A stretch of 41,320 nt of DNA from Solirubrobacteraceae bacterium (GTDB lineage: Bacteria > Actinomycetota > Thermoleophilia > Solirubrobacterales > Solirubrobacteraceae): contig JAEMSV010000031.1 in assembly GCA_016462625.1 (NCBI GenBank), positions 1 to 41,320 of the forward strand, given 5' to 3'. A program made the translations under genes and the position numbers. Positions 18,374-41,147 of the stretch are shown here, piece after piece (the first letter of the stretch is position 1; each line of letters opens with the position of its first letter). The notes beneath the pieces are model-generated. The model was not told the DNA's origin, made no database searches, and was given only the letters and a program-made list of their open reading frames with translations.

Positions 18374-18417
18374 GAACGTCGTTCTGCCGTCGCTATAGCG
18401 ACGGTGAACCGACGTTC
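18374..18417. terminator. Nested palindrome terminator between mini-membrane gene and diguanylate cyclase
   Basis: A perfect 18-base palindrome CCGTCGCTATAGCGACGG (18387-18404) sits at the exact centre of outer arms GAACGTCG (18374-18381) and CGACGTTC (18410-18417). The cyclase stop codon TAG lies in the CTATAG centre. This should terminate both converging transcripts. Confidence 0.7.
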
Positions 18418-22574: not shown

Positions 22575-22597
22575 CCGACTCGGCCGCTTCTACGCGA
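22567..22597. terminator. Inverted repeat holding both stop codons of a convergent pair
   Basis: TCGCGTAG (22567-22574) and CTACGCGA (22590-22597) form a perfect 8-base stem over a 15-base loop. The TAG stop of the plus-strand gene and the TAG stop of the minus-strand gene lie in the two arms. Confidence 0.5.
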
Positions 22598-25286
22598 CGC
22601 GCAGGACCGGCTCGGGCGCGTCGCCGAGCAGGACCTCGAGGTCCGGCGCGTCGATCGGCCGGCTCAGGAGGTAGCCCTGGGCGAGGTCGCAGCGCAGGTC
22701 ACGCAGCAGGTCGAGCTGCTCGGCCGTCTCGACGCCCTCGGCGACGACGGTCAGGTCAAGGGTCTGCGCGAGCTGGACGATGGCGGCCACGATCGCGGAG
22801 TCCTCGTCCTCCCTGCCGAGCCCGTCGACGAACGAGCGGTCGATCTTCAGGGTGTCGAGCGGGAAGCGCTTGAGGTAGCTCAGGGACGAGTAGCCGGTGC
22901 CGAAGTCGTCGAGCAGCAGGCGCGCGCCGGCGCTGCGCAGGCTCGCGAGGATGTCCTCGGGATCGCCGTCGGTCTCCATGAGGACGCTCTCGGTGATCTC
23001 GAGGCCGAGCGTGCCGGGCGTGAGCGAGACCTCGGCGAGGACCTCGGAGACGCGCTCGGGCAGGTCGGACTCGGCGATCTGGCGGCCGGAGAGGTTCACC
23101 GACAGGCGGAAGTCCGGCCAGCGCTCCTGCCAGCGGGCGACCTGGCTGCACGCCTCGCGCAGGACCCACATGCCGATCGGGATGATCTGCCCCGTCTCCT
23201 CGGCAACCGGGATGAACTCCATCGGCGAGACCGTGCCCCACTCGGGGTGGTCCCAGCGCAGGAGCGCCTCGGCCCCCGCGACGGCCCCGGTCTTCAGGTC
23301 GACGATGGGCTGGTAGACGACCCGCATCTGGTCGCGCTCGAGCGCGCGGTGCAGATCGCGCTCCAGGCGCATGCGCTCGTGCATCCGGGCGCGCAGGTCC
23401 TCGTCGAAGAGCTCGAACCGCCCCCGCCCGCGGCGCTTGGCGCGGTGCATCGCGGCGTCAGAGTCGCGCAGCAGGCTGTCGGCGCCCTCCGATCCGTTCT
23501 CGGAGATCGCGACGCCGATGCTCGCGGTCGAGAAGACCTCGCCGACGTCGAGCGTGAAGGGGGAACCCCACAGCTCGGTCAGCTTGTTGGCCAGCGCGAT
23601 GGCGTCGTGCTCGCCCGCGAGGCCCTCGCAGAGGATCACGAACTCGTCGCCGCCCAGACGGGCCACGGTGTCGGACGCGCGAACCTCGGAGCGCAGGCGG
23701 CGGGCGATCGCGCCGAGCAGCTCGTCGCCGGCGGCGTGGCCGAACTCGTCGTTGACGAGCTTGAAGCTGTCGACGCCGACCATGAAGACGGCGGTGTGCG
23801 ACTCGTCGCGGCGGGCGCGGGGCACCGAGCCGCGCAGGCGGTCCATGAAGAGCGAGCGGTTCGGCAGCTTCGTCAGCGAGTCGTGCAGCGCGCGCTCGCG
23901 GTCGGCGCTCTCGAGCTGCGCGCGCTCGACGGCCGAGCCGACGACGTGCGCGACGGACTCGGCGAACGCGATCTCGCCCTCGTCGAACTCGTGGACCTGC
24001 AGGCTGTAGCCCGCGAGGACACCGTACGTGCGGCCGCGCACGACGATCGGGACGGCGATCCCGCTGCGCGTCCCGTAGTCGCGCATCGCCTCGCTGCCGG
24101 GGAAGCGCGTCTCGGTCTCCAGGTCGCTGAAGACGACAGGGCACCCCTGCAACAGCGTGTAGCCAAGGTGGGTCGTGCGGTCGTCCGGGAGCGGCATCAG
24201 GTTGGCCCGCTCCTCGTTGCCGTCGCCGCCGGCGGCGCCGACGATCTCCAGGCGGGTGCCCTCGTCGGCGAGCTCGAAGACGACGCTCGCGTCGACCTGC
24301 AGCACCGACGTCGCGATGCGCGCGGCCTCGTCCATCAGGGCGTGGGGCTCTGCGAGCTGCAGCGCGCGGCGGCCGAGCTCGGCGACGGCGGCGTGACGGG
24401 CGGACGCGCGCTCGCGCTCGGCCTTCGCGCGGCGGTCGGCCGTGACGTCCCGGGTGATGCCCGAGATGCCGACGACCTCCTCGCCGTCGAGCAGCGGCAC
24501 GAGGTCGATGACCACGTCGACGGTCGCGCCGTCGACGCGCAGGAGGACCGTCTCGTGCTGGAGGCGCGCCTCGCCCGCGAGCACGGCGTTCAGCGCGAGC
24601 TTGTCGCGCTCAGCGGTCTCCGGCAGGAAGATCGCGTCGAACGGCGCGCCGACGCTCTGCTCGGCCGTGTACCCGAGGACGTCCTCGACGGCGTGGTTGC
24701 AGAACGTCATGACGAGATCGGTGTCGCAGGTCCAGATGACCTCCTGGGCGGCCTCGACGAGCCGGCGATAGCGATCCTCGCTCTCGCGCAGGCGCGCCTC
24801 GGCGCGGCGCGGCGCGGTGACATCGCGCAGCCAGATGGCGGCCCCGACGTACGCGCCGTCGGCGGCGCGCAGCTCCGAGCCCCCGATCTGCAGGTGGCGA
24901 ACGGAGCCGTCGCGTCCGGGCCGGTCGACGACGAGATCGTCGCCCGAGTCGCGGGAGGCGGCGAGGTCGACGCGAGACAGCAGCTCGTGCACCGCACGAT
25001 CCTCGAGCTGGTCGATGGCGCGGCCGAGCATGTCGTCGCGGGCCACGCCGAGCAGCTCGGTGGCGGCGTCGCTGATCCACTCGACTTCCTGATCCTCGTT
25101 CAGGACGATCATGCTCTCGGCCGACAGGGCGGACAGCGCCGCGGCGCGCTCGTCGAACTTGCGGGTCGCGCGGCGCCAACGCTGGGTGACGAGGATGACC
25201 CCGACAAGCGCCACGAACAGGACGACAACCGCAGCCGCCAGCGTGATGTCGTGAAGCTCGGTGATGGCGGCGGTGGGCAAGGACAT
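22590..25286 (-). CDS. Membrane PAS-PAS-GAF-GGDEF-EAL protein (c-di-GMP turnover)
   Basis: 898 residues. A short N-terminal membrane helix (about 12-34) is followed by two PAS domains (about 55-155 and 170-280; the second reads [25 protein letters not shown]), a GAF domain (about 310-455), GGDEF (signature GGDEF at 545-549, inhibitory RASD at 536-539) and EAL (EALLRW from 673; later [24 protein letters not shown] and ETAEQ). Both catalytic signatures are intact, so it could make or break c-di-GMP. Start ATG 25286; no ribosome site, and ATG 25343 is an alternative. It is divergent from the giant LuxR regulator by 148 bases. Confidence 0.93.
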
Positions 25287-25434
25287 GGGTAGCGGCAGCG
25301 GGAACGCGCAGCAAACGAGGCGCGCGATCTCCCCTTCATGCATATCGACCGGACCAACCCGCACCCCCATCCCCAGAACTGGTGGGGCAACTCGTCCAGT
25401 CCGTAGGCTTCCGCGCCACGTTCCCCACGGACTT

Positions 25435-28290
25435 GTGTTCGGCACCCCGCTCATCGGACGAGACCGCGAGCTGGCCGCCCTGGTGGCGGCGCGGCTGCCG
25501 ACGCATGCCGGTCTGGTCAGCGTCACGGGCGACCCCGGGATCGGGAAATCGCGGCTGCTCGCCGAGTTCGGCGGGCGCGCGCGGGCGGACGGTGCCCTCG
25601 TGCTCTCCGGGCGCGCGGCCGAGTTCGAGCGGGACCTGCCGTTCGCCGTGTGGATCGAGGCGCTCGACGATCACCTGCGCGCGTGTGAGGCGGAGTCGGC
25701 GGAGACGCTCGGCGGGCAGGAGGCGATCGACGAGCTCGCCGCGATCCTGCCGGCGCTGCGGCGCCGCGCGACCGGGTCGGCGCCACCGCTGGTCGACGAA
25801 CGCCACCGCACCCATGCGGCGATGCGGCTCCTGCTCGCGCGGCTGGCGGACGCGCAGCCCGTCGTGCTGCTGCTCGACGACCTCCATTGGGCCGACCCGG
25901 GCTCCGCCGACCTGATCGCCGCGCTCGTGCGGCGCCCGCCCGACGCGCCCGTGCTCATCGTGTGCGCGACACGGCCCCGCCAGGCGCCCAAGCGGCTCCA
26001 GAGCGCCTTGGACCGGGCCGAACGCGACCGGGGGCTCCTCCAGCTCACCCTCGAGCCGCTCGACCGGGCCGCGACGGACGCGCTGCTCGGCGACGGCGTC
26101 CCCGAACGCCGGCGCGCGCACCTGCACCGCGAGAGCGGCGGCAACCCCTTCTACCTCGAGCATCTCGCGCGGATGCCGGCCGGCGCGCGGGCCGTTCCGC
26201 GGACGATCCTCGACGCGGTGACCGAGGAGCTGCGCGGGCTCCCCGCCAGCACGAGGACCGTGCTCGACGCGGCCGCCGTCGTCGGTGACCCGTTCGATCC
26301 CGGCCTCGTCGCGGACGTGCTCGCCCGCCCTCCCGCGGACGTTCTCGCCGCGCTCGACCGGCTGCGCGCAGACGGGCTGATCGTGCCGACGGATGTGCCG
26401 CACCGCTTCGCCGCCAGGCATCCGCTGGTCCGCCGTGCCGTCTACGACGCCACCGGCCCCGGCTGGCGGCTGGGCGCGCACGCGCGGCTCACGACGGCGC
26501 TCAGCGAGCGCGGCGCACCGGCGGCGGTGCTCGCCCACCACGTGGCCCGCTCGGCCGCCCCCGGGGACGCCGCGGCGATCGCCACGCTGCACGACGCCGC
26601 CGAGGAGGTCTTCGACACTGCGCCGGCCACGGCCGCGGAATGGCTGGAGATCGCGCTCGCGCTCGCGCGTGACGGCGCCGACGCACACGCGGAGCGGCGG
26701 TTGCGCGCGCCGCTCGCCCGGGCGTTCGTCGCGACCGGTCGGCTCGAGGCGGCGCACACGCTGCTCGTTGAGGCCGCCGACGACGACCGCCAGTGCGGCG
26801 ACGCGCGACTCCGAGCCGCGCCACTGGCGGAGCTCACCCGCCTCGAACGCCGGATGGGCCGCCCCGAGGCCGCGCATGCGCGCCTGGTCGCGGCGTTCGA
26901 CGCGCTGGGCGCAGACGACCTCGCCGAGCGGCTCACCCTGCTGCTCGAGCTCGCCGGCGACAGCTTCTCCCGCGCCGAGATCGAAGAGATGCTCCTGCGC
27001 AGCGACGAGGCGGCCGCCATCGCCGAGGAGATCCGGGACGTCCCGGCGTACTCGGCGGCGCTCGCGCTCGGGGCGCTCGCGCGGACGCTCGGCGCGCTCC
27101 CCGACGCGCAGCGGGCCCTCGACGATGCCACCGTCGCCTTCGATGCGCTGACCGACGAGCAGCTGGCCGCCCGGCTCGACCAGGCGCACTTCCTGACCCT
27201 GGCGGACATGTACCAAGAGCGATTCCACCCGCTGGTCGCGCACGCCGAACGGGCGACCGGCGTCGCGCGCCGCACCCGCCAAGGTGCCCTGCTCGGGGTC
27301 CTCGCCTTCGCGCGCGGCTTCGCCCTGGGCATCACGGGACGGCTCGCGGAGGCGACCGCGATCTACGAGGCCGCCATCGAGGAGGCGCGGCTCGCCGACA
27401 ACCCGCTCTCGCTCGGGTGGGTGCTGCTGAACGCCGCGAACACGCGCTGCACGGTCGGCGACCTCGAGGCCGCGATCGCGCTCGCGGAGGAGGGCGATGA
27501 GCTGATCCAGGCGCTCGACGAGATGATCATGAAGGCGTACGCCGGGGACGTCCTGGGCGAGGCGCTCTTCCTCTCCGGCCGGCCGGCCCGCGCCGCCGAG
27601 ACCCTCTTGGAGCACTGCGGCGGGCCGGAGATCCCGCTCATCCAGGGCTTCTGGCGGCCACGCACCCTGATGTACCTGTGCCTGGCCCAGCTCGCGGCCG
27701 GGCGGCGGGCCGACGCCGAAGCGGCGGCCGCGCTCGCCACCGAGCTCGCCGACGGCCTGGGGCTGCCGTGCGCGGGCGCGTGGGCGACCCGAGCCCGCGC
27801 CGCGCTGGCGCTCGACGCGGGAGACGCCGACGACGCGGCGCGCCTCGCCGTGGCCGCGGCCGCCGCGCTCGACGCGCGGGACGCCCCGATCGAGGCGGGA
27901 CGCAGCCGCGTGCTCGCGGCGCAGGCGCTCGCCACGGCCGGGCGCCGCGACGAGGCCGTCGCGACCCTGCGCGCCGTCGCCGACGTCGCCGACCGCACCG
28001 GCGCGCGCGGGCTCCGCGACGAGACCGCCCGCGAGCTGCAGCGCCTCGGCCGCCGCCCCCGGCGCGGCGACAGCGACGCGACCGGCCTTGCCAGGCTCTC
28101 CGGACGCGAGCGCGAGGTCGCCGAGCTCATCTGCGACGGGCGCACCAACGCGCAGATCGCCGCCGAGCTCTACCTCTCACCGAAGACCGTCGAGACGCAC
28201 GTGCGGAACATCTTCGGGAAGCTGCTGGTCTCCTCGCGGATCGAGATCGCACGGGCCGTCGAGCGCGAGCGGATCGCCGCCGGGGACTAG
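25435..28290 (+). CDS. Giant AAA/LuxR-family regulator (MalT-like STAND ATPase)
   Basis: 951 residues. An N-terminal P-loop NTPase has Walker A GDPGIGKS (32-39) and Walker [13 protein letters not shown]. It is followed by a winged-helix region, a long helical TPR-like repeat region (Ala/Leu/Arg-rich, about 350-870) and a C-terminal LuxR helix-turn-helix ([39 protein letters not shown]). In such STAND proteins ATP binding and a ligand on the TPRs drive oligomerisation and DNA binding. Start GTG 25435 places the first beta strand near the N terminus. Its TAG stop overlaps the stop of the convergent lectin gene within one CTAG. Target genes and ligand are unknown. Confidence 0.93.
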
Positions 28291-31200
28291 CGAACGACGA
28301 GGTTGCGCACGGTGTGGCGATTCGTCAGCCCGCCGGTGCCGGCGCCGAACCCGAGCAGGACGCGCGACGGCAGCGTTACGGCCTGCGAGAGCATCGGGGT
28401 GCCGTCGAGCGACACGGTGATCGTCCCCGCGACGATGACGACCTTCACGTGGCGGGTCGTGTTCTGCAGCGGGGTCAGCAGCGACGCGGTCTGCAGCCAG
28501 CCGAGCGTCTGCCACGCCCCCGCGACGGCGCCGTTCGACAGGCCGACGAAGTTCCCCGTCGCCTGCGTGCCGTTCGGGTAGCTGGCCAGCGCGACGGCCC
28601 AGCCGGCGATGCCGCCGAAGCCCAGGCTGCCACCTCCCCCGCCGAGCGACGTCGCGAGCGCGCCGCGGGTCGGATCGCCGAGGATCATGGTCATGCCGTC
28701 GGCGCCCGTGCCGTTGTCGACGGTCGCGTCGAACTCGATCGTCTTCCCGGCCGGGTCGATCTGAGTCGGCCAGAACGCGGTCCCCTTGCTGTCCGCCGTC
28801 GCCGGCGTGAGCTGGAGCGCCCCACCGGTGATGGACGCCACGCCGTTCAGCTGCCACCCGCCCGCGGACGGGTCGGGCACGGTGCTCGTCGTCGGCGTGT
28901 ACGTCGAGGTGAACGCGACGGTGTTCTCCCCCGCCGCGAGCGAGAAGGCGGGCACCGTGTAGGCGCCTCCGGATGCCGTAACCGGCTGCGCGGCGCCGCC
29001 GTTGACCGAGACGGTCGCGCTCCAGCCGGCGCCCGACGGGACGGCCTGGACGACGGAGCACGCGGTGCCCTGCACCGCACCGGTCAGCGCGGGCGTGGCG
29101 CTTGCGCCGGCCGCGACCGTCGCCGAGAAGGCGCTCGGGCAGGAGCCGCTCACCGACACGGCGGTGCTCGCCTGAGGGGTCCCCGCAGGCGCGACGATCG
29201 TGCTGCGCACGCGCAGGGTCGCGGCGGGCGGCGGGGTGCCGGTGGACGACACCTTCAGGTTGCGGACGGTGTGGCGGTTGGTCAGCCCGCCGGTCCCGGC
29301 GCTGAAGCCGAGGAGCACCCGCTCCGGCAGGACAACCGCACGCGAGAGCAGCGGCGCACCGTCGACGGTGACCGTCATGACGCCCGCGGCGACCGTGACC
29401 TTGATATGCCGGGTCGTGTTCTGCAGCGGGGTCAGCAGCGATGCGGTCTGCAGCCACCCCAGCGTCTGCCAGGCGCCGGTGACCGCGCCGTTCGACAGGC
29501 CCACGAAGTTCCCGGTCGCCTGTGTGCCGTTCGCGTAGCTCGCGAGCGCGACCGCCCAACCGGGGATGCCGCCGAAGCCGAGGCTGCCGCCCGCGCCGCC
29601 GATGGACGTCGGCGTGGCGCCGCGCGCCGGGTCCCCGAGCACCATCGTCATGCCGTCGGCGCCGGTGCCGCCGTCGACGGTCGCGTCGAACTCGACGCTG
29701 AGCCCATTGGCGAGAACGGTTTGGGGCCAGAACGCGCTGCCCTTGCTGTCCGCGGTCGCCGGCGTCAGCTGGAGCGCGCCGCCGGTGATGGACGCGACGC
29801 CGTTCAGCTGCCAGCCCCCCGCCGACGGGTCGGGCACGGTCTGGCTCGGCGGCGCCGGCGGCTGGTAGCGGTTCGTCAGCACGACGGTGTTCGGCCCGGC
29901 CTGGAGCGCGAAGGACGGGACGCGGATGATCCCGTCGACGACGCTGATCGCCTGCGGCGTGCCGTTGTTCACCGTCGCGGTGGTCGACCACCCGTCACCG
30001 GTGATGGCGTCCTGCTCGACGACGCACTGGCTGCCGACCTGCGCGTTGGCCGGGGTGGGCGTCGCCGACGCGCGCGGCGCGAGCTGGAGCGGCCCGAACG
30101 TGCCGGGGCAGCGGCCGGCCACGCGGACGGTGGTCGATTCCTGCGCCGACCCGGGCGGCGCGACGACGGTGTTCGTGATCCGCAGCGAGGGCGGCTCGGG
30201 CCCCGGCTCGCCGGTGCCCCCGTCGGGCGGCGGCAGCGCCGGACCGGCCGCGCCGCCGATCGTCGCGTTCGACACGGCGTGGCGGTTCGTGCGACCGCCG
30301 GTGCCCGCGCTGAATCCGACGAGCACGCGGTCGGGGAGCGTGACGGCCTGGCTGACCCGCTCGACCCCGTCCACCGACAGCTTCAGCACGCCGCCCGAGA
30401 TCTGCACGCGCACCTTGCGCGGCGTGGTTCCCGCCAGCACGGGGACGGCGCTCGTCTTCAGCCAGCGCGGGAGGACGGCCGTCGCGGTCGCGGCCCCGTC
30501 GGACACGCCCACGAACGGGGCGGCGACCCCGTTGTTCGGATAGGTCACGAGCGCCGCGGCCCAGCCCGGCACGCCGATGAACCCGAGCCCGCCGCCGCTC
30601 AGGCCGAGCGCGGTCGGTGTCGCGCCGCGCGCGGGGTCGGCGAGGACGAGCGCCATGCCGTCGCCGCCCGTGCCACCGGTGATGAGGGCGTCGAAGCTCA
30701 CGTCGAGCCGGCGCGCGTCGACCGGAGTCGGCCAGAACGCCGTGCCCTTGCGGTCGCGAAGGGCCGGGGTCAACTCGATCCCGGCCGGGTTCGTGCTCAC
30801 GGCCGCCGTGCCGTTGCGCTGCCAACGCGTGTCCGTGACGTTCGGGATCGCGCCCGCCGCGGTGAGGTCGGCCGAGACGATGCTGCCGTCGCTCGCGGTG
30901 ACCCGCCAGCGACCCTGCACGCTGCCCAGCTCGGTCGGCGTGAAGCGAATGGTCCGCGAGACGTCGGCGCCCGCGGCGACGACCGTGCCGGTCGCGAGCG
31001 GGCTGTCGAGTGTGAACTGGCCGCCGGGCGCGGTCGAGCCGGTGATGGTGACCGGGGTCGTGCCGGTGTTGCGCAGCGTCACGGTCTTCGTCAGGTTCGC
31101 CCCCGGCGCGACCTCGCCGAAGGCCGTGCTCGCGGTCACCGGCTTCAGCGCGCCGGTCGCGGCACCCGCGTCGCGGTAGGTCGCGGTCAGCGTGAGCGCG

Positions 31201-33260
31201 CTCGCCGGGATCGCGATGTCGTGCAGGCGAGCGCCGCTGTCCGACCAGCCGGTGAACTCCCACATCCGCCCGTCGCGCGTGAAGCGCTCGGCCGCGGACA
31301 CCGACGTCCGGAACCCGACCGCCGCGTCCTGGCTGTACGGCGCCGTGAACGCCCGGCCCGCGTAGGTGATCGGCGCGCCGGCCGGCGAGCTGTCGAGCTT
31401 CAGCAATCGGGTCTCGGGCCGGATCTCCACCCGCTTGACCGCCGATAGCCCGGTCGCGTCCGTCGCCGTCAGCTCGATCTCGTAGTAGCTGTCGGCGTCG
31501 TGGTCCTCGACCGCGCGGAAGCTCGTCTCCGCCGCACCCGCGACCTGGACGATCGGGTGCGTGTGGGTGCCGTGGTGCAGCGTCACCCGCCAGTTCAGCC
31601 CGCTCGCGGCGACCGCCCCGACGCCCGGGTCGGTGGCCGACCCGCGCAGCGCGACGACGTCCCCGCCGCGGAAGGTGGCGCCCGCCAGCGGGGCGGCGAT
31701 CACCGGGACCGGAGGGTCATTGCCGGCGGTGATCTGCACGGTGTCCGACGCGGTGCCGCCGCGGCCGTCGTCGACCGTCAGGGTCACCGTGTACGTGCCC
31801 GCGGCGGTGTAGACGTGCTGCGGCGACGCGGCGGTGCTGGCGGCCGTGCCATCGCCAAAGGTCCAGCGGTAGGTCAGCGGGTCGCCGTCAGGGTCCCGTG
31901 AGGCGGACGACGAGAGGTTCACGGTGAGGGGCGCGGAGCCACTCGAGGGGGTCGCCGTCGCGTCGGCGACGGGCACGCGGTTGCCGGTCCCGTACGCGAT
32001 CCGCATGACCGAGCCCGTGCCGGGATCGCCCGTCCCGAACGACACGTAGGCGATGTCGCCCGACGGCGTGCGGATGAGCTGCACGCCCGACCAGTCCGTC
32101 GCGAAGGAGGTGGCCGCGGTCACCCGGTCCTGCGCGTCGACGTCCAGGTGCTTGACCCAGCCCTGCGCGTAGTCGGCGACGAAGATGTCGCCGTCGTAGT
32201 CGTCGGGGTAGCTGCCGCTCGGGTACATCGGCCCGCCGACGACCGCCGCATCCGCGCCGTTGCGGTCGTACGACCAGTTCGGCACGCGGTCCGCCGTCGC
32301 GGTCCCCTCTCGCGCGTACTCGACCGCGCACTCCGCGCGGTCCGCGTAGCCGCTCGTGCGGCCGGACCCCTCGTAGCACGGCCATCCGTAGTTGCCGCCG
32401 CCGCTGCGGATGATGTCGAGCTCTTCGCGCTCGCCCCAGCCGACGTCGCCGACGATCAGCCCGTCGCCCGTGGGCAGGAGATCGAACCGGAACGGGTTGC
32501 GGAAGCCCTTGTTGTAGAGCTTGGCGCAGACCTTCGTGAGGTCCGTCTCCGCCGGGCAGAACGGGTGGCCGGTCAGCCCCCGCCCCTCACGATCGATGTG
32601 GACGATCTTCCCCGCGAGGCTCTGCTCGTTGTACGTGCGCAGCGCGAGCGGGTCCACCATCGAGTAGCTCGACGCGTCGCCCGAGCCGGCGTACAGGGTG
32701 CCGTCGGGCGCCGATCGGACCGATCCGATCGAGTGCGAATCGCCCTCCGACGGGATGCAGTCGACCGCGTTGCTCGGCGCCGGGCACAGCGACGACGTGT
32801 ACGTGCCGAGGATGACCTTCATGTCGGTGAGCGTGCTGTCCGCGTTCAGCCGGTAGCGGCGCAGCTGGGAGATCATCGGGCCGTAGCGATCGGCGTTCCC
32901 GGGCGCCATCTCATACGTGAAGAGGAGGTAGACGTACGGGTTGGTCGCGAACTGGCCGTCGACGGCCAGGCCGAGGAGGCCACGGTCCCAGTAGCTGTGG
33001 ACGGTCGAACGCAGGTCGAGGATCTGGCGTGCGGTGGTCTGCCCCGGGTCGGCGACCTTCAGCACGCCCTCCTTCTCGGCGATGAGCATCCGCCCGTCCG
33101 GCGTCCACGCGACGGCGGTCGGCATGCTCAGCCCGCCGACCATCGTCTGCTCGGAGAAGCCGGCCGGAAGCGTGGCGGCATGGGCAGGCGCCACGGCGCA
33201 CAGGACGCACGTGAGGATCAGCGCGGCGAGCGCCGGCAGCGATGAGGGACGAGAGGACAA
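28287..33260 (-). CDS. Very large secreted protein: glucose-dehydrogenase-like propeller, PKD, three L-type lectin domains
   Basis: 1657 residues. TTG 33260 starts a signal peptide ([22 protein letters not shown]). Domains by approximate residue: soluble PQQ/aldose sugar dehydrogenase-type beta propeller, 30-425 ([36 protein letters not shown] with the catalytic-type His, [27 protein letters not shown]); PKD, 430-515 (YRWTFGDG); further Ig-like segment; ASH-type beta sandwich, about 712-803 ([20 protein letters not shown]); lectin domains at about 808-1003, 1140-1336 and 1459-1657, each with FWP, GTGxDGM, GWAxAL and GTGGxTNRH motifs, separated by Cys-bearing DUF5979-like spacers. It probably oxidises or binds extracellular sugars. 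No PQQ biosynthesis gene lies here, and whether it is an active dehydrogenase is uncertain. Confidence 0.88.
28301..28883 (-). repeat. Direct repeat, copy A: third lectin domain
   Basis: Aligned landmarks at both ends (GGTTGCG at 28301 against 29258; GACGGGTCGGGCACGGT at 28867 against 29824) keep a constant 957-base offset with copy B, so the two units line up without net insertion and in frame (319 codons). Confidence 0.85.
29258..29840 (-). repeat. Direct repeat, copy B: second lectin domain
   Basis: Partner of the copy at 28301-28883. Long identical runs are visible, for instance around the codons for the [19 protein letters not shown] segment. The first lectin domain (about 30250-30840) is a much more diverged third copy, so the duplication of B and A is the recent event. 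Confidence 0.85.
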
Positions 33261-33374
33261 AAGACCGGAACCCCGAGCAAAGGTATAGCGCAGGGACCGG
33301 CATTCCTCTACTTCCGCTGAGCAATACAGGTCCACCTGGCATGTCGGGACACACCGCGCCACACTGCGAGCGTC

Positions 33375-36300
33375 ATGGATTGCGTCGAGATCCGCCTGCT
33401 GGGCCGGTTCGAGGTGACCGTCGACGGCGCTGCCGTCCCCGACGACGCCTGGCCGCATCGCCGCGCGCAGGATCTCGTCAAGGTCCTCGCACTCGCTCCG
33501 GAGCACCGGCGCACGCGCGACGAGATCCTCGAGGCGCTGTGGCCCACCCTCGCGCCGCAGGCGGGCGCGGCGAACCTCCACAAGGCCGCCAGCAACGCGC
33601 GGCGCGCACTTGGCGCGAAGGAGGCCATCGTCATCCGCCAGGGGGTCGTGCAGCTCGCGCCCGGCGCGCGGGTCGCGACCGATCTCGCGGAAGGCGCCGG
33701 TGACGGCGAGCTGCTCCCCGAGGACCGCTACGAGGAATGGACGACCGCGGCCCGCGAAGAGCTCTCGCAGCGGCGGCTGACCACACTGCGCGCCGACGAG
33801 CGCTGGAACGACATCCTCGCGTCCGACCCCGCCGACGAAGAAGCACACCGTGCGCTCATGCGCGCGCACGCGAGAGACGGCGACCGGGTCGCCGCGGCGC
33901 GTCAGTACCGGCGGGCACGCGACGAGCTCTCCGCCCTCGGCCTCGCGCCCGGCGCGGAGACCGAGGCCCTCTACCGCGAGCTGTGTCAGGGGCCGGCCGT
34001 CGTCGCTCCGACTCGCGGCGGCGCGCCCGTGATCGGCCGTGACGCGACGCTGCGCACCGTGGCGCAGGCCGTCACGAGCGCACGACGCGGCCGCGGCGGC
34101 GCCCTGCTCGTCACCGCCGACGGCGGGATGGGCAAGACGCGGCTCGCCGACGCTGCGCTCGCGCAGGCCGCCGCCCAGGGCTGGCACACGCTGCGGGGAA
34201 CCGCGCGCGCCGGCGAGGGCGAGGTCCCGTACGCCCCGATCACCGAGGCCCTCGACGCGCTGCTCGCCGAGCGGCCGGAGCTCGCCGTCGGCCTACCGGA
34301 CGGCGCGCGCGGAGTGCTCGCGCTGCTCACGCCGTACGCCCCGCGCGCCGGGACCACACCTCCGGGTGACGCGCCGCGCCACCGGGTCGTCGCCGCGATC
34401 ACGCAGCTCCTCCTCGCCGCCGCCCGCGAGCACGGGCTCGTCCTGGTCGTCGAGGACCTCCACGCGGCCGACGAGGCGACCGTCGAGGTCGTCGAGCACG
34501 TGGCCCGCGCGGCGCGGCGTGAGGCGCTGCTCGTCCTCGCCACGTCGCGGCCCACAGCGGAGGCGTCGCCCGCCGCGCGCCTGCGCGACACGCTCGTCGC
34601 CCAGGGCGCGGCGATCGCGCTGGAGCTGCCGCCGCTCGGCGACGGCGACATCGCGGAGATCGCCCGGCACGCGGCCCGGCGCGATCTTCCGGCAACCACC
34701 GAGGCCGCGATCGTGGCCGCCGCGGCCGGCAACCCGTTCTTCGCCGAGGAGCTCGGCGCCGCGGCGGACGACGACGGACAGCTGCGCGTCGGCGCGCGGG
34801 CCCACCAGGTGCTCGAGGACCGGCTGGCGCACCTGCCCGCGAGCGCCGCGGCCATCGTCCCGCTCGCCGCCACCCTCGACGAGCCGGTGACCGCGCCGGA
34901 CCTTGCGGCGCTCGCGGGAGTCACCGCCGAGGCAGCCGCCGACGCCGTCGAAGCGGGGATCGCGGGCGAGGTGCTCGAGCCGCGGCCCGGCGGGGGCGCG
35001 CGCTTCCGCCATCCCCTGCTGCGCGAGGCCGCCCGCCGGACGCTCGGCCCGCAGCGGCTCGCGGCGGCCCACGCCGCGGCGGCGGACCGCCTGCGCGAGC
35101 AAGACGCCGCGCCCGAGCTGGTCGCCCACCACCTGCTCCAGGCCGGCGACGAGGCCGCCGCGGTGCCGCTCCTCACCGAGGCCGCCCGCCGCGCCGCCGC
35201 GCTCGGCGCGTTCGCCGACGCGCAGCACGACGTCGAGCGCGCGCTCGACGTGGCGGCGCCCGGCCTGCGCGGCGACCTCCTCCTGCTCCTGGCCGACCTG
35301 CGCCACGCGACCGGCGACCAGCGCGCGCCGGCGACCTACCAGCAGGCGCTGGCGGCGGGGGTCGACGCGCCGCCCGTCGCGATCGAGCTGCGCCGCGCAC
35401 GGGCCTTCCTCACCGTCGGCGACCCTGCGAGCGCACGTGCGGTCCTCGACGCGCTGATGGTCACCGAGCCCGCCGACGAGCAGACGGTGCTCGTCCTCCG
35501 CGGCATGGCGAGCTGGTACCTCGGGGACGTCGACGACGCACGGGTCCAGGCCGAGGCGGCCCGCGCGCACGCGGCCGCGGCCGGGTACTCGGACGACGGG
35601 TCGCTCGCCGACCTCGAGGCGATGATCGCCCACGCCGACGGCGCCTGGGCCAGCCAGATGGAGTGGCAGCTCAGCGAGCTGTGGGACGCACCTGAGGTCG
35701 CCGAGCGCGTCTTCGACGCCTACCTCTGCGTGAGCGAGTACATCCTGCACTGCGGCGATCCGTTCGAGCAGATCGAGGCGTTCGCGTCACGGGTGCGGGA
35801 GCGGTCCGCCCGCGCCGGCGCCCGCCGCGGCGAGGCGTTCGGCGCGACCGTCGTGGGCGAGGCGGCGCTGCTCGCCGGGGACCCGGCGCAGGCCCGCGCC
35901 CATCTGGTCGAGGCCGCGCGGCTCAGCCGCGCGGTCGGCGCCCGGGCGGGCGAGGCGCTCGCCCGCGCGCGGCTCGGTGAAGCGCTGCTGCACCTCGGCG
36001 ACCGCGCGGCGGCGCGTGCCCAGCTCGAGCACGCGATCGAGCTCGGGCACGACTCGCCGCTGGCGCACCACGTCCTCTACCTCGCCCACCACCCGCTGCT
36101 GCAGGTGCCCGAGGATCCCGACGAGGCCTACGCGCTCCTCGAGCAGGCCGAGACGCTGCTGAGCGACCGCCCCGCGTGCCGGTTCTGCCCCGTCGGCTAC
36201 TGGGCGGAGGCCGCGGGCGTTGCCGCGCGCGCGGGCGAGCCCGAGCGCGGGCGTGAGTTCCTCGCCCGGGCGGAGCAGGCCGCCGGGCTCTGGCGGCTCT

Positions 36301-36455
36301 CCCCGTGGGGCGCGGCCCTCGCGGAGGGCCGCGGTCACGTCCTGCGCGCCGAGGGCGACGAGCCGGGCGCCGTCGCGGAGCTGCAGCGGGCCGCCGACGA
36401 GTACGAGGCCCGCGGCCAGATCCTCTACGCCCGGCGGGCTGAAGCCCTGGTCTGA
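33375..36455 (+). CDS. BTAD-domain STAND ATPase regulator (SARP-like N terminus)
   Basis: 1026 residues. An OmpR-like winged helix (about 5-80; LLGRFEVTVDG, EILEALWPTL, LHKAASNARRALG) and a bacterial transcriptional activation domain (about 95-205; GELLPEDRYEEWT) resemble SARP/AfsR activators. A P-loop ATPase follows (Walker A ADGGMGKT, 248-255; Walker B VLVVED, 356-361), then a long helical TPR-like region to the C terminus, with a CRFC pair near 935. Such proteins activate nearby genes, often for secondary metabolism. Start ATG 33375. Downstream, 64 bases on, begins the methyltransferase gene, then a second BTAD protein whose first 220 residues align to this one almost without gaps. Confidence 0.92.
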   Translation: MDCVEIRLLGRFEVTVDGAAVPDDAWPHRRAQDLVKVLALAPEHRRTRDEILEALWPTLAPQAGAANLHKAASNARRALGAKEAIVIRQGVVQLAPGARVATDLAEGAGDGELLPEDRYEEWTTAAREELSQRRLTTLRADERWNDILASDPADEEAHRALMRAHARDGDRVAAARQYRRARDELSALGLAPGAETEALYRELCQGPAVVAPTRGGAPVIGRDATLRTVAQAVTSARRGRGGALLVTADGGMGKTRLADAALAQAAAQGWHTLRGTARAGEGEVPYAPITEALDALLAERPELAVGLPDGARGVLALLTPYAPRAGTTPPGDAPRHRVVAAITQLLLAAAREHGLVLVVEDLHAADEATVEVVEHVARAARREALLVLATSRPTAEASPAARLRDTLVAQGAAIALELPPLGDGDIAEIARHAARRDLPATTEAAIVAAAAGNPFFAEELGAAADDDGQLRVGARAHQVLEDRLAHLPASAAAIVPLAATLDEPVTAPDLAALAGVTAEAAADAVEAGIAGEVLEPRPGGGARFRHPLLREAARRTLGPQRLAAAHAAAADRLREQDAAPELVAHHLLQAGDEAAAVPLLTEAARRAAALGAFADAQHDVERALDVAAPGLRGDLLLLLADLRHATGDQRAPATYQQALAAGVDAPPVAIELRRARAFLTVGDPASARAVLDALMVTEPADEQTVLVLRGMASWYLGDVDDARVQAEAARAHAAAAGYSDDGSLADLEAMIAHADGAWASQMEWQLSELWDAPEVAERVFDAYLCVSEYILHCGDPFEQIEAFASRVRERSARAGARRGEAFGATVVGEAALLAGDPAQARAHLVEAARLSRAVGARAGEALARARLGEALLHLGDRAAARAQLEHAIELGHDSPLAHHVLYLAHHPLLQVPEDPDEAYALLEQAETLLSDRPACRFCPVGYWAEAAGVAARAGEPERGREFLARAEQAAGLWRLSPWGAALAEGRGHVLRAEGDEPGAVAELQRAADEYEARGQILYARRAEALV

Positions 36456-36519: not shown

Positions 36520-37296
36520 ATGAGCCTGCTGAGCACCGTCGACGTCGACGACCTGCGCGCGGAGATCCGCGCCACATACGACCGCGTCGCCCGTGAGCCC
36601 GACGCCGAGTTCCACTTCGAGATGGGGCGCGCCCTCGCCGCCCGCATCGGCTATCCAGCTGAGGATCTCGACGCCGTGCCACCCGACGCCCTGGCGTCGT
36701 TCGCCGGCGTCGGCCATGCGCTGGATCTCGCCGCGCTCGCCCCCGGCGACCGCGTCGTCGACCTCGGCTGCGGCTCGGGCACCGACGTCTTCGCGGCCGC
36801 GCGGCGCGTCGGCCCGGAGGGCCGGGTCGTCGGCATCGACATGACGCCCGGCCAGCTCGCGAAGGCCCGGGCGCTGCGCGACGCGGCATGCCTCCCGCAC
36901 GTCGCGTTCGAGCACGCGCAGATCGAGTCCCTCCCGCTCCGCGCCCGCTGGGCCGATGTCGTGATCTCCAACGGCGTCGTCAACCTCGTGCCCGACAAGG
37001 GCGCCGTGTTCGCCGAGGCGGCGCGCGTGCTGCGGCCGGGCGGCCGGCTCGCGCTCGCGGACATCGTCTCGAACCGGGAGATCAAGCCGACCACGCGGGC
37101 GAAGGCCGACCTGTGGGCCGCCTGCGTGGCCGGGGCCATCGTCCGCGAGGACTACCTCGCGCTCATCGAGGGAGCGGGCCTGCGGGTCGAGCAAGTGCGG
37201 CGCAATCCCGAGTACCGCTTCATCAGCGAGCGGGCGCAGAGCACGTGTGCGAAGTACGGCGTCGAGGTGATCGAAGTGCTCGCCGTCAAGCCGTGA
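36520..37296 (+). CDS. ArsM-like SAM-dependent methyltransferase lacking two arsenic-site cysteines
   Basis: 258 residues. The class I SAM fold is evident: motif I DLGCGSG (81-87), acidic Asp108 in VVGIDMTPGQLAKAR, and VVISNGVVNLVPDKGAVFAEAARVLRPGGRLALADI. The sequence around these matches arsenite methyltransferases closely (GYPAEDL, the IDMTP and VNL.PDK phrases, VAGAI). Yet in ArsM the cysteine of the ISNC motif is here Gly152, and the upstream GCGNP-type cysteine position is His66. Only Cys202 of ACVAGA is kept. So arsenic is an unlikely substrate, and another small molecule is probable. Start ATG 36520 has AAAGGA. The stop TGA overlaps an in-frame GTG of the next gene. Confidence 0.88.
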   Translation: MSLLSTVDVDDLRAEIRATYDRVAREPDAEFHFEMGRALAARIGYPAEDLDAVPPDALASFAGVGHALDLAALAPGDRVVDLGCGSGTDVFAAARRVGPEGRVVGIDMTPGQLAKARALRDAACLPHVAFEHAQIESLPLRARWADVVISNGVVNLVPDKGAVFAEAARVLRPGGRLALADIVSNREIKPTTRAKADLWAACVAGAIVREDYLALIEGAGLRVEQVRRNPEYRFISERAQSTCAKYGVEVIEVLAVKP

Positions 37297-37313
37297 CGCG
37301 CAAGACTGGGTCC

Positions 37314-39311
37314 ATGCGCGAGCTCGACCTCCGGCTGCTCGGCACCTTCGCGGTGACGGTCGACGGCGAGCCGCTGCCCCATGCCGCCTGGCCCCAGCGC
37401 CGGGCGGCGGATCTCGTGAAGCTGCTGGCCCTGGCACCGCGGCGCCGGCTTCCGCGGGACCGGGTGCTCGAGCTGCTGTGGCCCCATCTCGATCCGGCCG
37501 GCGCCGCGGCGGCGCTCCACAAGGCCGCGCACTACGCGCGCCGCGCGCTCGGTGACCGGGAGGCGATCGTCCTGGCCGGGGGCACAGTCGCGCTGTGGCC
37601 CGACGCGGCGGTGACGACGGACGTCGCGCGGTTCGAGGCCGCCGACGAGGCGTACGCCGGCGAGCTGCTGCCTGACGACCTGTACGAGCCGTGGACGATG
37701 GATGAGCGCGACCGCCTGCGCGGCCTCGCCCTGGACCGGCGCCGGGCGGCCGGTGACTGGGACGGCGTGCTCAGGCTCGACGCGGCCGACGAAGAGGCCA
37801 CCCGCGACGCCATGCGCGCCGCCGCGGCGGGCGCGGACCGCGCTGCGGTGGTCCGCGTGTTCGAGCGGCTGCGCGCGGCCTTGGCGGCGCTCGGCATGCA
37901 GCCGTCGCCGGAGACCGTGCGGCTGCTCCGCGACCTCTCGCGCGGCCCGGCGGTCGTCGCGGCCCTCGGCGAACCGGTGGCGATGACCGGCCGCGCGACC
38001 GAGCTGGCGAACGCGCTGGCGCGGCTCGACGCCGCCAACGCCGGCACCGGCGGCGTCCTCCTGCTCACCGGCGAGCCCGGGAGCGGCAAGACGCGGCTGG
38101 CCGAGGCCGTCCTGCGGGAGGCCGGCGAGCGCCGGTGGCACACCGTGCGGGCCGGGGCCCAGGACGTGCCTGACGCGGTGGCGGCCGTGACCGGCACGCT
38201 CCGCGCCACCCGCCCCGACCTCGGGGCCGAAACCGGTGACGTCCTCGCGAGCGCGGCGGCCGAGCGCGGGTGTGTCGTCTTCCTCGACGATCTGCACGCC
38301 GCCCCGGACAGCACCGCCAGCGCCCTGACCGAGCTCGGCGCCCGGGCCGCCGGCCTGCGGCTCCTCATCGTGGTCGCCTGGCAGCCGTCCCAGGCGCGCA
38401 CGCGGCTGCACGCGACGCACGGGGAGCTGCTCGCCCGTGGCCTTGCGAAGGAGATTCCGCTCGCCCCGCTCGCCGAGACCCCGCCCCAGACGCGCTACGC
38501 GACCACCTCGGACGGCGCGCGCATCGCCTTCCAGGTCGTCGGCGACGGCGACACCGACATCGTCCTGGTCCCCGGCTTCGTCTCCAACGTCGAGCACATC
38601 TGGGAGATGCCGACCGCGCGGCGCATGTTCACGCGCCTCGCCGCGCGCCACCGGCTGATTATCTGGGACAAGCGCGGGACCGGGCTCTCGGACCCGGTCG
38701 CCGACGTTCCCTCCCTCGAGGAGCGCGAGCTCGACCTCATCGCGGTCCTCGACGAGGCGGGCTCGGAGCGCGCGGTCCTGCTCGGCGTCTCGGAGGGCGG
38801 GCCCCTTGCGCTGTCGTTCGCCGCCACGCATCCGGAGCGGGTGACCGCACTCGCGTTGGTGGCGACCGCGCCACGCTTCGTCGCGGACGACGGCCTGCCG
38901 GGCTGGGACGCGGGGCACGCCGACGCGCTCGCCACCGGCCTGTTCGAGCGGTGGGGCACCGGTGCCCTGCTGACCGTGTTCTCCCCGTCGCACGCGGGGG
39001 ATCCCGTGAGCCGCGAGCTCTTCGGCCGCTTCCAGCGGATGGGGGCCAGCCCGACGATGGGCCGCGCGACGGTCCTGGCCATGCTCGACATGGACGTGCG
39101 CGACGTGCTCGGCGACGTCCGCGTCCCCACGCTCGTGCTGCACCGCGCGGGGGACCGGATGATCCCCGTCGGCGGAGGCCGCGCGATCGCCGAGGGCGTG
39201 CCCGGCGCGGTGTTCGTCGAGCTCGCCGGCGACGACCACTTCCCCTTCCTCGGGGACATGGACGACGTCACCGATGAGATCGACGCGTTCCTCGCCCCCC
39301 ACACCGGTTGA
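37314..39311 (+). CDS. Fusion of BTAD regulator, truncated P-loop ATPase and alpha/beta hydrolase
   Basis: 665 residues. Residues 1-210 are a winged helix plus BTAD region parallel to the gene at 33375 (LRLLGTFAVTVDGEPLP, VLELLWPHLDPAG, LHKAAHYARRALG, GELLPDDLYEPWT). A shortened P-loop domain has Walker A GEPGSGKT (253-260) and Walker B VVFLDD (321-326), but the usual winged-helix and TPR parts are missing. From about 393 an alpha/beta hydrolase follows (TRYATTSDGARIAFQVVG, VPGFVSNVEHIW, WDKRGTGLSDP) with a full triad: Ser493 in GVSEGG, Asp614 in HRAGD, His642 in GDDHF. ATG 37314 aligns with the start of its paralog; GTG 37293 is an alternative. It may sense or process a ligand with its hydrolase half. 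Confidence 0.9.
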   Translation: MRELDLRLLGTFAVTVDGEPLPHAAWPQRRAADLVKLLALAPRRRLPRDRVLELLWPHLDPAGAAAALHKAAHYARRALGDREAIVLAGGTVALWPDAAVTTDVARFEAADEAYAGELLPDDLYEPWTMDERDRLRGLALDRRRAAGDWDGVLRLDAADEEATRDAMRAAAAGADRAAVVRVFERLRAALAALGMQPSPETVRLLRDLSRGPAVVAALGEPVAMTGRATELANALARLDAANAGTGGVLLLTGEPGSGKTRLAEAVLREAGERRWHTVRAGAQDVPDAVAAVTGTLRATRPDLGAETGDVLASAAAERGCVVFLDDLHAAPDSTASALTELGARAAGLRLLIVVAWQPSQARTRLHATHGELLARGLAKEIPLAPLAETPPQTRYATTSDGARIAFQVVGDGDTDIVLVPGFVSNVEHIWEMPTARRMFTRLAARHRLIIWDKRGTGLSDPVADVPSLEERELDLIAVLDEAGSERAVLLGVSEGGPLALSFAATHPERVTALALVATAPRFVADDGLPGWDAGHADALATGLFERWGTGALLTVFSPSHAGDPVSRELFGRFQRMGASPTMGRATVLAMLDMDVRDVLGDVRVPTLVLHRAGDRMIPVGGGRAIAEGVPGAVFVELAGDDHFPFLGDMDDVTDEIDAFLAPHTG

Positions 39312-39363: not shown

Positions 39364-40587
39364 TCAGTGAAACGCCGGGGGTTCGCCGAGCGCCACCTTC
39401 GCCAGCCACTCGTACGCGCGGTTCGCGCCGAGGGGGTGCATGAACATCCCTGCCCGTGCGTCGCGCACCGCGCGGCTCAGCGGGTGGGCGTTCATGTAGC
39501 CGGCGCCGCCCGAGCACGCGAGCGCGCGGTCGGCCACCCGCATCGCCGCGGCGTTCACCGCCGTCTTCGCCGCCTGCGCCTCGGCGAACAGGCCGACGAC
39601 CTCGTCGTCGTCGAGATCGAGTGGCGCGGCGTCCTGCAGCCGCGCGGCCCGCGACAGCACACCCCGCGCGGTCGCGAGATCGACGACGTTCTCCGCGATG
39701 AGCATCCGGGCGCGCGGATCGTCCGCGCCCCGCCGCCGCAGCGCGGCCCGCACGAGCGCGTCGGCCTCCTCGGCGACCCCGAGCGACGCCGACGCGTGGA
39801 ACAGCCCGGACGCGAGGTTCCGCGCCATGTACGGCACGGACTCTCCCACCGGGAACCCGCCGCTGACCGCGCCGGCCGGCAGCTCCACCCCTTCGAAGCT
39901 GACGGACTGGCTCCCCGAGGCACGCATCCCGAGCGCATCCCAGTCGTCGTGCAGGACGATGCCGGGCGTACCCGCCGGGATCTGCGCGAACGCGTAGCGC
40001 TCGTCGCCGACGGTCGTGACGGCCACGACCAACACCGTCGCCGCCGGGGACATGGTGCAGAACACCTTGCGCCCGTCGATCCGCCAGCCGCCCGGCGACG
40101 GCGTCGCGGTCGTGGCGGGCCGCGTCATGTCCTGCCCCGGCTCGCTGACCGCCGTCGCCAACACGACGCCGTCGCGCGCGATCACCGAGAGGATGGCGCC
40201 GATCGCCGCCTCGCGCCGCTCGTCCCCGCGCTCGGCCGCCAGCGCGTGGAGGCGCACGTAGTTCCCGAGAACGGCGAGGTGCATGTTCGCCCCGATCGCG
40301 ACCGACGCATCCCCGCGCGCGAGGCGCGAGGAGGCGACGACCTGGTCGTGGACGCTCGTGACGCCGAGCCCGCCGAGCTCTTCGGGAATGGAGGCGGCGA
40401 ACCACCCGGCGTCGAGGAGCGCGGCGATCCCCTCGTGCGGGTATGTGCCCGCGCGGTCGTGGTCGGCGGCGGGCCCGCGGAGCTCCTCGGCGAGCCGTTC
40501 GGCCAGCTCGACAAGCCGTGCGCCGGCCGGCGTCTCCGCCGTCAGGCCGGGCGGACGGTCCGTCGTCGGCAGCGTGGCGGTCGTCAT
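39364..40587 (-). CDS. Acyl-CoA dehydrogenase family flavoprotein
   Basis: 407 residues. The ACAD fold is recognisable: N-terminal helical domain (FAASIPEELGGLGV), middle beta domain (VLATAVSEPG, WRIDGRKVFCTMSP, DALGMRASGSQSVSFEGVELP), and C-terminal helical domain (CSGGAGYMNAHPLSRAVRDARAGMFMHPLGANRAYEWLA). The final motif is typical of a broad actinobacterial ACAD subgroup whose substrates are mostly unknown; some members are monooxygenase-like (DszC type). Start ATG 40587 overlaps the OsmC stop as ATGA, so the genes are translationally coupled. The gene is convergent with the BTAD-hydrolase fusion, separated by a strong hairpin. Substrate not predictable. Confidence 0.92.
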   Translation of the reverse strand: MTTATLPTTDRPPGLTAETPAGARLVELAERLAEELRGPAADHDRAGTYPHEGIAALLDAGWFAASIPEELGGLGVTSVHDQVVASSRLARGDASVAIGANMHLAVLGNYVRLHALAAERGDERREAAIGAILSVIARDGVVLATAVSEPGQDMTRPATTATPSPGGWRIDGRKVFCTMSPAATVLVVAVTTVGDERYAFAQIPAGTPGIVLHDDWDALGMRASGSQSVSFEGVELPAGAVSGGFPVGESVPYMARNLASGLFHASASLGVAEEADALVRAALRRRGADDPRARMLIAENVVDLATARGVLSRAARLQDAAPLDLDDDEVVGLFAEAQAAKTAVNAAAMRVADRALACSGGAGYMNAHPLSRAVRDARAGMFMHPLGANRAYEWLAKVALGEPPAFH

Positions 40588-41147
40588 GCGCGCGTCACCT
40601 CCACCGTCACGCCGTTGGTGACCATGTCGAAGACCGCCGACCGCGCCTGGGCGCGCTCGAGGATCTCGTCGAGCTTCTCGGCGGGGGCGTCGCCCTCGAT
40701 CTCGAAGCGCGCGCGGATCCGCTCGAACCCGTTGCGCGGCCCTTCGTCGACGCCGAGGCAGCCGCGCACGTCCATCTCGCCCTCGAGGTGCGAGCAGACC
40801 CGCGTCAGCTCGACCTTGCGGGCGGCCGCGACGAACACCAGCGTGGTCGTCAGGCACGCCGCGAGCGCGTGGAGCAGGTGCTCCGCGGGATTGGGCCCGG
40901 TGTCGGAGCCGAGCAGGATCGCGGGTTCACCTGCGTCGAGCGTCCAGCCGTGGTCGCGCGTCGCGTCCTCGCCGCCCGCGGCGTAGAAGCCGCGGATCTC
41001 GGAGCGGTTGTGGGCGCCGTCGACCCACTCGTTCGCCGCGCGGAAGACGAAGCGGCCGAGCTCGGGCTGCTCGCCGAGCAGGTCGAGCGTGCCGAACATC
41101 GTGGCGGTGTCGACGCCGTTGCGGACGGGATTGGTGGTGCTGGCCAT
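40584..41147 (-). CDS. OsmC/Ohr-superfamily protein
   Basis: 187 residues. The OsmC fold is shown by the strand FRAANEWVDGAHNRSEIRGFYAAG, the helix EHLLHALAACLTTTLVFVAAARK carrying the conserved first cysteine (peroxidatic position) and the strand VCSHLEGEMDVRG. The second helix, where Ohr/OsmC have a resolving cysteine, reads RAQARSAVFDMVTNGV and has none, so classical thiol peroxidase activity is doubtful; a related YhfA-like role is possible. Start ATG 41147 has GAAGGAGAG just upstream. It is the first gene of a coupled pair with the acyl-CoA dehydrogenase and is divergent from a partial SDR gene. Confidence 0.9.
   Translation of the reverse strand: MASTTNPVRNGVDTATMFGTLDLLGEQPELGRFVFRAANEWVDGAHNRSEIRGFYAAGGEDATRDHGWTLDAGEPAILLGSDTGPNPAEHLLHALAACLTTTLVFVAAARKVELTRVCSHLEGEMDVRGCLGVDEGPRNGFERIRARFEIEGDAPAEKLDEILERAQARSAVFDMVTNGVTVEVTRA

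Follow-up and report, generated by a model that had tools for sequence, protein, structure and literature searches.

A predicted BTAD-type regulator with a LipJ-type alpha/beta hydrolase in place of the TPR sensor

Large SARP regulators (BTAD-NTPase-TPR) combine a winged helix, a BTAD-like part and a P-loop nucleoside triphosphatase (NTPase), behind which lie a helical arm and TPR repeats. Here we describe a protein that shares the first three of these parts (it is 46% identical over 422 columns to a TPR-type protein of another genome of the family, G375), but in which an alpha/beta hydrolase (ABH) replaces the arm and TPR; it is encoded in the window, a 41,320-nucleotide stretch of DNA from a Solirubrobacteraceae bacterium (assembly GCA_016462625.1, contig JAEMSV010000031.1). 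The available part of PMC10972967 lists four classes (small, medium, large and SARP-LAL), and no hydrolase class. The closest ABHs belong to hydrolase-class III cyclase fusions of the LipJ/Rv1900c type, which surround the window ABH in our trees; they carry the cyclase on their chain, whereas the window protein has none and bears its DNA-binding part at the opposite end. Other ABH receptors are separate proteins: RsbQ acts via a PAS domain on a phosphatase, kinase or diguanylate cyclase, and D14 and KAI2 work through partner proteins, with the role of hydrolysis debated for the latter two. In the window protein, by contrast, the putative receptor would share one chain with the DNA-binding part, and Pfam found no PAS domain. 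For RsbQ, the accessible part of PMC3183031 sets an occupancy model of the catalytic site beside a product model. BzdR also joins a DNA-binding domain to an effector derived from an enzyme, shikimate kinase (PMC3602430, accessible part); catalysis is lost in BzdR, whereas the triad is mostly kept in BTAD-ABH proteins. No BTAD-ABH regulator is described in the open-licence PMC literature that we searched by titles and starts of abstracts, with subscription papers outside its scope, nor in the available parts of PMC3183031, PMC10972967, PMC10865251, PMC4886424, PMC3548789, PMC3602430 and PMC2447327; the last of these surveys actinobacterial cyclases, mentions BTAD, LipJ and a hydrolase fold, and may describe related fusions. 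By sequence, the window protein is a new variant of SARP-type regulator, in which a hydrolase of the LipJ type occupies the place of the sensor.

We consider it probable (roughly 60%) that the window protein is a one-component regulator of the SARP/BTAD type in which the ABH acts as sensor and hydrolysis as reset. A single unbroken frame at 37314-39311 (+), opening with ATG 37314, encodes 665 residues. The regulator probably starts at GTG 37293, for a product of 672 residues: the GTGA at this position is common to that start and to the stop of a methyltransferase gene (36520-37296), and the relatives P0008 and P0009 open with MTRQTR, matching the residues read from GTG 37293. This overlap suggests that methyltransferase and regulator are co-translated. 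The gene and its parts are as follows.

37293..39311 (+): gene for winged helix-BTAD-NTPase core-ABH (open frame, Pfam, GTGA overlap, P0008/P0009 N-termini)
37314..37958 (+): winged helix and BTAD-like part, residues 1-215 (weak Trans_reg_C, EmbR profile match, model, PF03704 in relatives)
37959..38471 (+): P-loop NTPase core, residues 216-386 (AAA_16, Walker motifs, five model strands; no arm or TPR behind)
38472..39299 (+): ABH domain, residues 387-662 (Abhydrolase_1, LipJ model, triad conservation, fold)

The first-pass annotation had read a winged helix, a BTAD and a P loop in this protein; the first and the last are retained, and the BTAD stands indirectly. The Trans_reg_C match at residues 30-83 is weak (E 0.02, below the Pfam cut-off), and a profile of five N-terminal parts matches EmbR alone in the PDB up to E 0.1, across the winged helix (E 8.6e-6). 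A full-protein model from 45 aligned sequences (mean predicted local distance difference test score 93.3) displays, in order, a winged helix, a helical part, a five-stranded NTPase core with its last strand at 378-383, and the ABH from 394. We conclude that the protein has a predicted N-terminal winged helix-turn-helix. The Pfam search returned no PF03704 (BTAD) match for the window protein; this domain is present in the full-length relatives P0004, P0009, P0010 and P0011, and the G375 relative lies narrowly above the cut-off (23.1 vs 22.1 bits), so that the identification of a BTAD is supported indirectly, through relatives, EmbR match and model. The NTPase core matches AAA_16 at residues 225-353 (E 4.2e-14, above cut-off), with GEPGSGKT as Walker A and VVFLDD as Walker B. 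In STAND NTPases a helical arm is expected behind the core. In the model the next strand (394-397) is that of the ABH, which starts about 10 residues past the last NTPase strand; being so close, it suggests that the arm is gone as well as the TPR, which is absent from the Pfam matches of the window protein. Residues 387-662 do form an ABH in its place, as had been proposed.

The ABH itself matches Abhydrolase_1 at residues 416-646 (E 4.2e-13, above cut-off) and contains the motif DKRGTGLSD. Its putative triad, Ser493 (in GVSEGGP), Asp614 and His642, had been described as intact-looking, and is invariant in an alignment of the query with nine intact relatives. Pfam found no cyclase in the window protein, whose chain ends with the ABH. 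The top curated model for the ABH is LipJ (lipase/adenylate cyclase; 164.6 bits, residues 390-661), in a match that covers the N-terminal part of NF058673 and misses its curated cut-off of 800 bits; the second is 3-oxoadipate enol-lactonase (104.5 bits). Among the matches listed, ABH-cyclases are 52-60% identical to the window ABH. By these alignments we assign the window ABH to the LipJ hydrolase-cyclase group, far closer to LipJ-type ABHs than to RsbQ or KAI2. The ABH fold with a Ser-His-Asp triad and helical lid is present, as in RsbQ, D14 and KAI2; structural alignments to D14 and KAI2 give 19-22% identity, and fold scores do not tell receptors from esterases.

Proteins of the same layout were found by searches in which about 8000 candidates were scored per query and the best 120 matches listed, then sorted by BLAST at E <= 1e-4. 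With the window protein as query, 1720 of 7993 scored candidates matched at E <= 0.001, and the 120 best comprise 12 BTAD-NTPase-ABH proteins (the query included), 60 BTAD-ABH, 35 ABH-cyclase, one BTAD-ABH-cyclase, nine BTAD-NTPase and three NTPase-ABH pieces. P0016, placed with the BTAD-NTPase proteins, is a BTAD-NTPase-ABH with a frame change before the ABH. Nine intact relatives (P0002-P0004, P0006-P0011) are 47-66% identical with 98-99% of the query aligned; P0005 is without the nucleophile stretch, and P0012 has a frame change near its end. The closest named genome, a Solirubrobacterales metagenome-assembled genome, holds a fragment where one of its contigs ends (L001). Matches were found in 29 of 299 genomes of the class at E <= 1e-60, those listed lying in the ABH or NTPase end, and in 60 of 146 genomes of the family at E <= 1e-40. 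Among the family matches listed, G375 alone has both halves in one frame, in a relative of 701 residues (59% identical) on a 5,953,270-base contig. This scarcity suggests that the BTAD-NTPase-ABH subtype is rare; bearing in mind that only the best four candidates per class genome (299 drawn from a larger set) and the best eight per family genome were scored, ABH places may be under-counted. Plasmid and phage records yielded no match with 80% coverage.

Hydrolases on BTAD regulators extend well beyond this subtype. A Massilia pinisoli query gave 483 matches at E <= 0.001, and all 120 listed, from Massilia, Bradyrhizobium, Paraburkholderia, Caballeronia and Cupriavidus among others, have both BTAD and ABH similarity (a few are short pieces, and some lack a Pfam BTAD mark); within Massilia, such a protein occurs at E <= 1e-50 in two of 62 genomes. 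An actinobacterial query (L004) gave 6244 matches, not all of that architecture, with 118 BTAD-ABH-cyclases and two BTAD-ABH proteins among the 120 listed; a further protein, L034, is a winged helix-ABH-cyclase. Most BTAD-ABH proteins found have no NTPase, and among the proteins sorted by architecture the DNA-binding part is N-terminal-most. BTAD regulators that bear a hydrolase thus recur, and those that also have an NTPase core are the rare ones. In databases they go under names such as 'alpha/beta fold hydrolase' and 'SARP family activator/carboxylesterase'.

The first of two trees, with 92 ABH domains, places the 14 BTAD-NTPase-ABH rows in a clade (100/99) among the ABH-cyclases, and the NTPase-free BTAD-ABH rows, of which 24 were sampled from 60, in a separate clade (100/100). 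A single origin of the BTAD-ABH join was considered and rejected: forcing both BTAD groups together gives an approximately unbiased test value (p-AU) of 0.0151, or 0.0112 with the Massilia pair. A 94-row tree with wider sampling recovers the same two groups (100/97 and 100/100), with the Massilia group (100/99) nested in a larger BTAD-ABH clade of 24 rows (100/100); its 18 sampled BTAD-ABH-cyclase rows require six changes. The join of this one ABH group to BTAD thus occurs in no fewer than two distinct lineages; the trees are unrooted, so that gain and loss are not separable, and RsbQ, D14 and KAI2 are not among the rows. Two further loci deserve mention in connection with this group. In G001, a protein of the BTAD-ABH type whose end resembles a cyclase (L136:9449-11431, +) is followed at once by a short protein (L136:11499-12155, +), which shares 63% identity with the window protein in the BTAD part. 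A 601-residue protein of G722 (L170:4971-6776, +) has a BTAD close to that of the NTPase-free BTAD-ABH group and a TPR-like part, with no NTPase.

A further observation concerns the catalytic residues across the family. In the three lists, 290 of 313 BTAD-fused ABHs keep the triad (246 as Ser-Asp-His, 44 as Ser-Glu-His); 17 have Arg for His and six are without some residue, four of these six being short, gapped or frame-changed proteins. In a further sequence set the triad is kept in 14 of 16 BTAD-NTPase-ABH proteins and, with Asp or Glu, in 101 of 105 ABH-cyclases. Arg replaces the catalytic His in 16 of the 118 BTAD-ABH-cyclases (P0260-P0288), which keep nucleophile and acid, are otherwise complete and have ABHs 76-85% identical to intact ones. 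Their completeness suggests that the ABH module is kept even where turnover should be crippled, and we regard them as probable natural pseudo-hydrolases. Two of the 16, P0270 and P0280, are sisters in the 94-row tree (100/94), and it is likely that all form a single clade.

The genes around the regulator supply a functional context, and four of them are compared here with other genomes.

33375..36455 (+): large BTAD-NTPase regulator, at 1026 residues of ordinary size, a TPR-type sibling (AAA_16 and BTAD)
36520..37296 (+): ArsM-like S-adenosylmethionine methyltransferase; stop overlaps the probable regulator start; 61% identical gene in G375
39364..40587 (-): acyl-CoA dehydrogenase/SfnB-like flavoenzyme, convergent to the regulator; relatives in G375, G448 and G403
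40584..41147 (-): OsmC-family protein, shared more widely than any other neighbour; 54-70% identical genes near ABH regulators in eight places

The N-terminal part of the sibling resembles the window regulator (35% over 570 columns), and a G375 protein in which TPR matches were found aligns with the sibling over 945 columns at 49% identity. G375 has counterparts of the whole set: methyltransferase (61%), regulator (59%), flavoenzyme (57%), OsmC (69%) and BTAD-NTPase-TPR (49%). Gene order differs there: the methyltransferase gene stands three genes upstream of the regulator, separated from it by SCO4226-like (PF14026) and cyclase genes; an FAD-enzyme gene separates regulator and flavoenzyme; and the TPR-type regulator is at the far end. 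The cyclase is a free-standing class III cyclase (L140:11176-11727, +) that ends 18 bases before the regulator gene and has the cyclase half of LipJ as its best model (176.7 bits), as if the halves of a LipJ-type protein were now split into adjoining genes.

With the window OsmC as query, the 146 family genomes yielded 20 places, 12 close (54-70%, E <= 1e-60) and eight distant (35-38%). Eight of the 12 close places lie within 3 kb of a listed ABH of the LipJ group, as against none of the eight distant ones among the matches listed. Six of these eight OsmC genes (G448, G163, G449, G240, G445 and G446) stand behind BTAD-ABH-cyclase genes on the same strand; G403 has one behind an ABH-cyclase gene, and the eighth belongs to the BTAD-NTPase-ABH cluster of G375. 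The flavoenzyme gene comes next after OsmC in two genomes, G448 and G403. Mutual identity among the three kinds of ABH protein beside OsmC is 41-43% in the aligned part. The neighbourhood thus follows the ABH across outputs (BTAD-NTPase-ABH, BTAD-ABH-cyclase and ABH-cyclase), and the OsmC/flavoenzyme pair is a possible conserved target or pathway of LipJ-group hydrolases. At the level of single loci, OsmC is directly behind BTAD-ABH-cyclase or ABH-cyclase genes at L173:8834-12625, L175:6090-8735, L176:6048-8703 and L177:7805-11368, and an SfnB-like flavoenzyme is next in two of these four.

We envisage the following cycle. A small ester, lactone or similar molecule tied to the OsmC/flavoenzyme genes would enter the hydrolase pocket. 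Flavin monooxygenases can produce esters or lactones, and such products would suit a hydrolase sensor. Binding, or an acyl-enzyme stage, would alter the lid or the dimer arrangement; this would change how the winged helix/BTAD part binds DNA at the regulator's own operon, and perhaps also at the OsmC/flavoenzyme genes. The switch would then be reset as the ligand is hydrolysed and the product leaves. BTAD regulators and class III cyclases both act as dimers, so one kind of ABH could control either output through dimer geometry. The arm-less NTPase core is probably a spacer or second input, given sister groups that have none. A hydrolase-gated, one-protein transcription factor, reset by turnover of its ligand, had been called conceivable in the first-pass annotation: the architecture, its recurrence and the mostly conserved triad lend this partial support, and we regard it as plausible. 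If it is true, SARP regulators would have an additional type of sensor, the choice between occupancy and product could be tested with one protein and one promoter (in natural intact and Arg-for-His versions), and the protein might serve as a scaffold for ester or lactone biosensors. A broader proposal is more tentative, with the odds somewhat against it: BTAD-ABH proteins might constitute a large class, so far undescribed, of hydrolase receptors that act as one-component systems, as bacterial counterparts of D14, KAI2 and RsbQ, with the receptor on the transcription factor and catalysis as a timer that terminates signalling. In the Arg-for-His group that timer would have been dropped, and the ligand may stay bound. 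The adjoining flavoenzymes could supply the ligand as an ester, a lactone or a hydroperoxide-related product, OsmC could be a protective output, and in the subtype of the window the co-translated methyltransferase may also shape the signal.

Several observations weigh against a sensor ABH with hydrolytic reset. We infer the ligand, the DNA site, the coupling, the targets and the role of the methyltransferase. The full-protein model has a predicted template-modelling score (pTM) of 0.67, which bears on the interdomain arrangement. An intact triad is equally expected in an ordinary esterase, and LipJ is listed as an esterase in the available part of PMC10865251. Of 11 BTAD-NTPase-ABH proteins compared, 10 have both Walker motifs (A and B) intact, so the NTPase may still be the switch. 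The six BTAD-ABH-cyclases near OsmC are 71-100% identical, two of them fully, and count as one related set, which leaves the OsmC link resting on about three lineages. OsmC-type genes also adjoin BTAD-NTPase-TPR genes, in G375 and, as a piece of 36% identity, in G397; the OsmC link is therefore not confined to ABH proteins. Four of the 12 close OsmC places are without a LipJ-group ABH at that cut-off: G367 has an ABH of 33% identity behind the flavoenzyme; the second OsmC copy of G375 has one of 27%, 4.6 kb away; G449:C211 has none; and G059 has a 3.6 kb contig (L183) with OsmC, an FAD enzyme and a cyclase, and BTAD and ABH only as short pieces, so that its regulator seems broken or the contig faulty. 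The best G375 match of the window flavoenzyme lies elsewhere (63%, vs 58% in the cluster). Relatives of the methyltransferase at E <= 1e-40 occupy 17 places in 16 of the 146 family genomes, and in the 11 that we viewed (short loci L144-L154) a BTAD stands beside the methyltransferase in G375 only.

The main rival, which we hold to be unlikely, is a trigger enzyme of the kind exemplified by PutA and BirA: the ABH would primarily be a metabolic esterase or lactonase of an OsmC-flavoenzyme pathway, and its occupancy would also be reported to the BTAD. The ordinary-looking triad and the pathway-like neighbourhood are what it would predict. However, the 16 BTAD-ABH-cyclases that lost the catalytic His kept all else, and the fusion partners of this ABH are regulators and cyclases; both fit a sensor better than a metabolic enzyme.

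It is improbable, to a greater degree, that the NTPase remains the switch, as in large SARPs, with the ABH as a docking surface that replaces TPR and senses no small molecule. The Walker conservation and a core well formed in the model speak for it. On the other hand, P0011 has lost Walker A (its Walker B is altered) and P0005 has Arg in place of the Walker Lys, the arm is missing, other BTAD-ABH groups have no NTPase, and conservation of the triad would be left unexplained. Mean pairwise identity in the BTAD-NTPase-ABH subtype is 0.49 for the NTPase core vs 0.66 for the BTAD part (55 pairs), and in TPR-type proteins 0.64 vs 0.72 (36 pairs). At equal BTAD divergence the two sets overlap, so these values do not demonstrate relaxed constraint, and we set general NTPase decay aside.

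The prospects are slimmer again for an inert fusion, that is, two independent activities on one chain with no cross-talk. It draws on the poor conservation of the stretch that joins NTPase to ABH, across which coupling is postulated; yet the same ABH group has repeatedly been joined to BTAD, with the DNA-binding part leading in those sorted by architecture. Finally, a sequencing or assembly artefact fusing two genes has practically no standing, given nine intact relatives of the same architecture, the copy inside the 5,953,270-base contig of G375 and the neighbours common to that genome and the window.

Some minor observations concern the surrounding genes. The methyltransferase scores 212.6 bits against the ArsM model (cut-off 263), and ArsM likeness alone does not suggest ester formation. 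Near one methyltransferase relative (L145), an ABH-like piece of 60 residues (E 7e-7) accompanies a weak cyclase match; a wider view of that locus (L172) retains the weak cyclase and holds no ABH at E <= 1e-6. The ArsM-like relatives in L151-L154 (G053, G226, G001 and G367) have one in-frame TGA each and are possibly selenoproteins, of a kind named by NCBIfam models. The neighbourhood of the Massilia BTAD-ABH gene gave no functional hint. A glucose/sorbosone dehydrogenase domain is encoded near BTAD regulators both there (L052:4834-6273, Massilia pinisoli) and in the window, which may be coincidence; in the window it belongs to a very long frame (28287-34187, -) that also has legume-type lectin and PKD domains. 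Because its upstream end runs into the beginning of the BTAD-NTPase-TPR gene, this frame probably has its true start nearer 33350. A LuxR-type regulator with an AAA_16 NTPase (25435-28290, +) is the third large NTPase regulator inside 14 kb, and a CHASE3-GGDEF protein (18393-20036, -) and a PAS-GAF-GGDEF-EAL protein (22590-25526, -) are encoded close together and close to these regulators.

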